Positions 11,024 to 13,454 of a DNA stretch of 13,729 nt are shown piece by piece; the first letter of the stretch is position 1, and every line of letters starts with the position of its first letter. The notes under the pieces were generated by a model, which was not told where the DNA came from, did not search any database, and was given only the letters and a program-made list of their open reading frames with translations. A program made the position numbers and the translations under genes. Source of the DNA: Alphaproteobacteria bacterium (GTDB lineage: Bacteria > Pseudomonadota > Alphaproteobacteria > Sphingomonadales > Sphingomonadaceae); contig JAQGLD010000078.1 of assembly GCA_028293055.1 (NCBI GenBank), positions 1 through 13,729 of the forward strand, read 5' to 3'.

Positions 11024-13454
<2,431 letters not shown>

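Follow-up and report, generated by a model that had tools for sequence, protein, structure and literature searches.

An in-frame amber codon in hemB of a fragmented Sphingomonadaceae draft genome is most likely a wrong or minority base

The hemB gene of the contig analyzed here (the window, contig C195 in its entirety, 13,729 bases) is interrupted by a single in-frame TAG, most likely an erroneous base or a mutation of very recent date, and not an altered genetic code. The frame lies on the minus strand at 12459..13454 and comprises 331 codons plus stop, from an ATG at 13454 to a TGA at 12461-12459. It is not one uninterrupted frame, as the TAG (12747..12749, minus strand) occupies codon 236, a Glu column in relatives. 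We regard it as probable that a single base is wrong here, in isolation, or that the consensus of this fragmented draft took up a minority allele. The living organism would then most likely have an ordinary hemB at this place, with most living cells presumably free of the stop.

Both sides of the stop encode the same enzyme. The front piece, residues 1-235 (12750..13454, minus strand), matches positions 3-229 of the 327 positions of the NCBIfam porphobilinogen synthase model NF006762 (E = 1.2e-93), while the tail piece, residues 237-331 (12462..12746, minus strand), matches positions 232-325 (E = 1.6e-41). Taken together, these adjoining ranges leave very little of the model unmatched. The PF00490 profile also assigns the gene to the family, aligning over positions 3-316 of 317 with 432.9 bits. 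Residues K201 and K255, the catalytic active-site lysines, correspond in an alignment to K205 and K260 of PDB 1b4k. The TAG separates K201, in the front piece, from K255, in the tail, so that each piece lacks one of the two lysines and is presumably inactive. Translation restarting from the ATG at 12698 (codon 253) would yield 79 residues. The original prediction had described each of these points, namely an amber codon splitting a hemB of normal total length, lysines on opposite sides of it and a 79-residue tail from 12698, and all are confirmed here.

With matches on both sides of the stop, a normal length and both lysines, this copy resembles other HemB proteins; it differs from them in having TAG where all those compared have Glu. 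In the locus alignment, the column is Glu in 109/109 other loci, the two remaining rows being the window itself (among the 109, L017 and L036 have identical matches and probably represent a single genome). It is likewise Glu in 128/128 homologous proteins of 329-333 residues, counted among the best-scoring matches only. Comparison with relatives thus bears out the claim that the stop replaces a position that is normally Glu.

The gene had further been called otherwise intact, which is true insofar as it has one stop and a constrained tail, but codons 234 and 276 are unlike those of all 128 homologues. Codon 234 (12753..12755, minus strand) is Glu, a residue absent from the homologues at this position (Ala in 111, Gly in 9, Ser in 7, and Thr in 1), and codon 276 (12627-12629, minus strand) is Tyr where 128/128 have Phe. 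The number of rare residues, 9, equals the 95th percentile of the 128 proteins, and there are 2 off-consensus residues in near-invariant columns, for which the homologues' 95th percentile is 1. Being six bases away from the TAG, codon 234 would be compatible with a stretch of poor consensus, and natural divergence can account for it equally well. Measured against 12 of the 23 same-genus loci, those most similar to it, the gene has a dN/dS of 0.18-0.28 in the front piece and 0.05-0.15 in the tail. A decaying pseudogene was rejected on this low dN/dS in the tail and the presence of one stop only, the two residues off near-invariant columns notwithstanding. The truncated product (P0122) forms a single-member cluster whose one contig is that of the window (in a list of the best 120 of 8000 scored), and the uninterrupted protein closest to this HemB, P0002, shares 93% identity with it. 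Three other heme genes, hemC, hemE, and hemH, present in one copy each in the draft, are uninterrupted; as hemB is also strongly conserved after the stop, the lesion is either an error or very recent. Separately, the draft's ferrochelatase match (G000:C432:663-1598) sits in a 964-codon open frame, far longer than the gene.

The draft genome has 3,595,131 bases in 644 contigs and is 82.29% complete and 4.37% contaminated; its size and number of contigs suggest a genome binned from a metagenome. Of 99 sampled contigs, 16, that is every one of <3,000 bases, read N. The contig has a G+C content of 67.2% versus 66.2% for the readable sample and falls within the sample's range. Directly downstream of hemB, a pyridoxal-dependent decarboxylase gene (11020..12462, minus strand; PF00282, E = 1.2e-56) adjoins it, as it does in 6/23 same-genus loci. 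The contig looks native because the relatives of its hemB are Sphingomonas and kin, this decarboxylase neighborhood recurs in some same-genus loci, and the G+C content is in range. The decarboxylase ATG overlaps the hemB stop as ATGA (12459-12462, minus strand), so that an early hemB stop could also reduce decarboxylase translation. Ten neighboring proteins were compared with Pfam; eight have a match at an E value of ≤0.001 and two do not (7107-7610 and 8768-11023). The latter frame (minus strand, 752 residues) has by eye a membrane-spanning front and a spermidine-synthase-like back.

A profile search of the draft, which is 82% complete with its contigs of <3,000 bases read as N, finds this hemB only, which speaks against the earlier suggestion of another hemB elsewhere. 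Within the family, 289/298 genomes have a hemB match. Among the rows listed for these 289 genomes, where the organism's own row does not appear, there is no stop inside hemB, and G092 is the only one with two matches. A match is lacking in 9/298 genomes (6/277 good ones), most of them split into many contigs; hemB is therefore now and then missing from assemblies. The gene is normally essential. The literature searched held nothing bearing on its essentiality in this bacterial group; one passage of PMC10746277 concerns a heme transporter, and PMC5513736 gave no hit.

Further interrupted genes were sought by a codon-usage scan of 84 readable stretches, covering 520,467 bases of the draft. An earlier scan, trained partly on antisense frames, had yielded 101 candidates and was replaced as too noisy. 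The scan of the 84 stretches gave 16 candidates, with hemB ranked first and mazG twelfth, and a second replacement scan gave 15, with hemB second and mazG fourteenth. Most of the other candidates were judged visually to mark the end of a gene followed in frame by the start of its neighbor; the ribosomal operon of L159 is an example. Four candidate piece pairs were put through Pfam. The second clear interrupted gene is mazG, which has a TAG at 156-158 of contig C65 (L231, minus strand) and is cut by the contig end. Its TAG stands in a conserved column that is Glu in 5/5 relatives; the draft's sole MazG match has this one TAG, and the matches in five relatives searched alongside are uninterrupted. 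In Pfam, the mazG tail piece matches PF03819, while the 47-residue front piece alone matches nothing.

Other candidates were set aside. A TAA at 2871-2873 of L179 (contig C520, minus strand) directly precedes ACAS_N of acs; the front piece has no match, and acetyl-CoA synthetase sequence begins downstream with the first residue of ACAS_N. The true start of the gene may thus overlap or follow this TAA, which was not counted as an interruption. Candidates at L235 (4836) and L125 (4282) were dropped, there being no family common to the two sides. A tblastn comparison of relatives' frames with the sample returned 608 matches, of which 47 nonoverlapping ones at ≥45% identity, spanning 14,044 codons, were retained; 11 stops lay within them. 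The retained hemB match was a shadow frame, the other stops were judged visually to be in shadow frames or upstream of starts, and no further gene was drawn from the comparison.

The scan was also applied, for control, to 400 kb of the near-complete genome G001, a relative; among ten candidates there was one real interruption, a TAG at 19618-19620 of L262 (contig C1:220001-240000, plus strand) in a pyruvate oxidase/dehydrogenase gene. The flanking pieces match positions 204-504 and 506-570 of the pyruvate dehydrogenase model NF006591, and in Pfam the front piece only finds a match. This TAG may well be a real mutation. Interruptions number 2 in 520 kb of the draft and 1 in 400 kb of G001, which is no difference and gives no ground for calling the draft worse. 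Given the mazG and pyruvate oxidase cases, isolated nonsense codons are ordinary in these sequences. A pattern of tolerated stops is not evident in the draft.

General readthrough of TAG shows no sign in the draft, either among the tRNAs recovered or in its conserved genes. A tRNA family search of the draft (82% complete) gave 35 places, and the anticodons read at 35/35, in 30 loci and five contigs, include no CTA. Domain copies from ABC transporters (22), short-chain dehydrogenases (36), TonB receptors (46), and aldehyde dehydrogenases (12) were checked for stops; together with hemH, hemE, and hemC, the 119 copies (36,628 codons) contain 0. In-frame TAGs in conserved genes are accordingly few: 0/119 copies and 2 clear cases in 84 readable stretches. 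TAG terminates 2/10 frames examined on the contig. The suggestion that a suppressor reads the hemB TAG is not upheld by these results.

How, then, is the stop best explained? The original prediction had offered a base error as the simplest option, and it is the best supported of the options, though by inference. Speaking for it are the fragmented draft, the invariant Glu column, the singleton truncated product, the uninterrupted hemH, hemE, and hemC, the constrained tail, the mazG TAG on another contig, and the two hemB residues seen in 0/128 homologues. Two observations count against it. The clean 119 domain copies indicate that the draft is not riddled with errors, and since near-complete G001 has an interruption in 400 kb, stops of this kind also occur outside poor drafts and a share of them are probably true mutations. 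That last point lends some weight to a real nonsense mutation that arose very recently in the population sampled and is carried by cells that use heme or porphyrin from neighbors or are being lost. Such a mutation is in keeping with a hemB that shows no decay beyond the one stop and with the apparently real stop in the pyruvate oxidase gene, and some of the 46 TonB-receptor matches could serve heme uptake. We nevertheless consider it unlikely. An error is favored over a real mutation because hemB is normally essential and the rest of the pathway is kept; uninterrupted hemC, hemE, and hemH argue against an established heme auxotroph, and among the rows listed for the 289 family genomes with a match none has a stop inside hemB. 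The family genomes without a match, most of them split into many contigs, weigh the other way.

A second, intact hemB that went unassembled, making the present copy redundant, is very improbable. The draft's incompleteness and the N-masked short contigs leave room for one, but G092 alone has two matches among the rows listed, and the copy at hand lies without decay in a neighborhood common to 6/23 same-genus loci. We give still less credence to readthrough by an amber suppressor inserting Glu or a similar amino acid. In hemB as in mazG, the two clear cases, the TAG falls at a Glu column, and a suppressor tRNA could be missing because the draft is incomplete. Against this stand the 35 tRNA places without a CTA anticodon, the domain copies without stops, and the genes on the contig that TAG ends; the two Glu cases are weak evidence, as a Glu codon easily becomes a stop by a single base change. 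That an uncultured Sphingomonas-like lineage has an amber suppressor, as yet missing from the assembly, that places Glu at a few housekeeping TAGs (hemB and mazG), in an early stage of TAG reassignment, is accordingly a highly improbable conjecture. The odds given here to error, mutation, second hemB, and readthrough are our judgement.

The hemB TAG, read as an error, has the marks of nonsense codons that enter draft genomes falsely or by chance: a single stop, no decay, a fragmented draft, and a second case on another contig. It differs from them in falling in a normally essential gene. With amber suppression and TAG reassignment it shares TAG codons within the frames of conserved genes, both clear cases being at Glu columns; unlike in those systems, no CTA tRNA is seen here, TAG also ends genes of the contig, and in-frame stops are rare. 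Shortened proteins serve in PMC6785717 as a gauge of assembly errors, in that case insertions and deletions in long reads. The hemB case adds a caution, in that a lone stop interrupting an essential gene should, where the draft is fragmented, be taken as a base-quality flag before auxotrophy or recoding is considered. If the stop were real, the organism would be a heme auxotroph in the making or a rare example of tolerance to amber codons.
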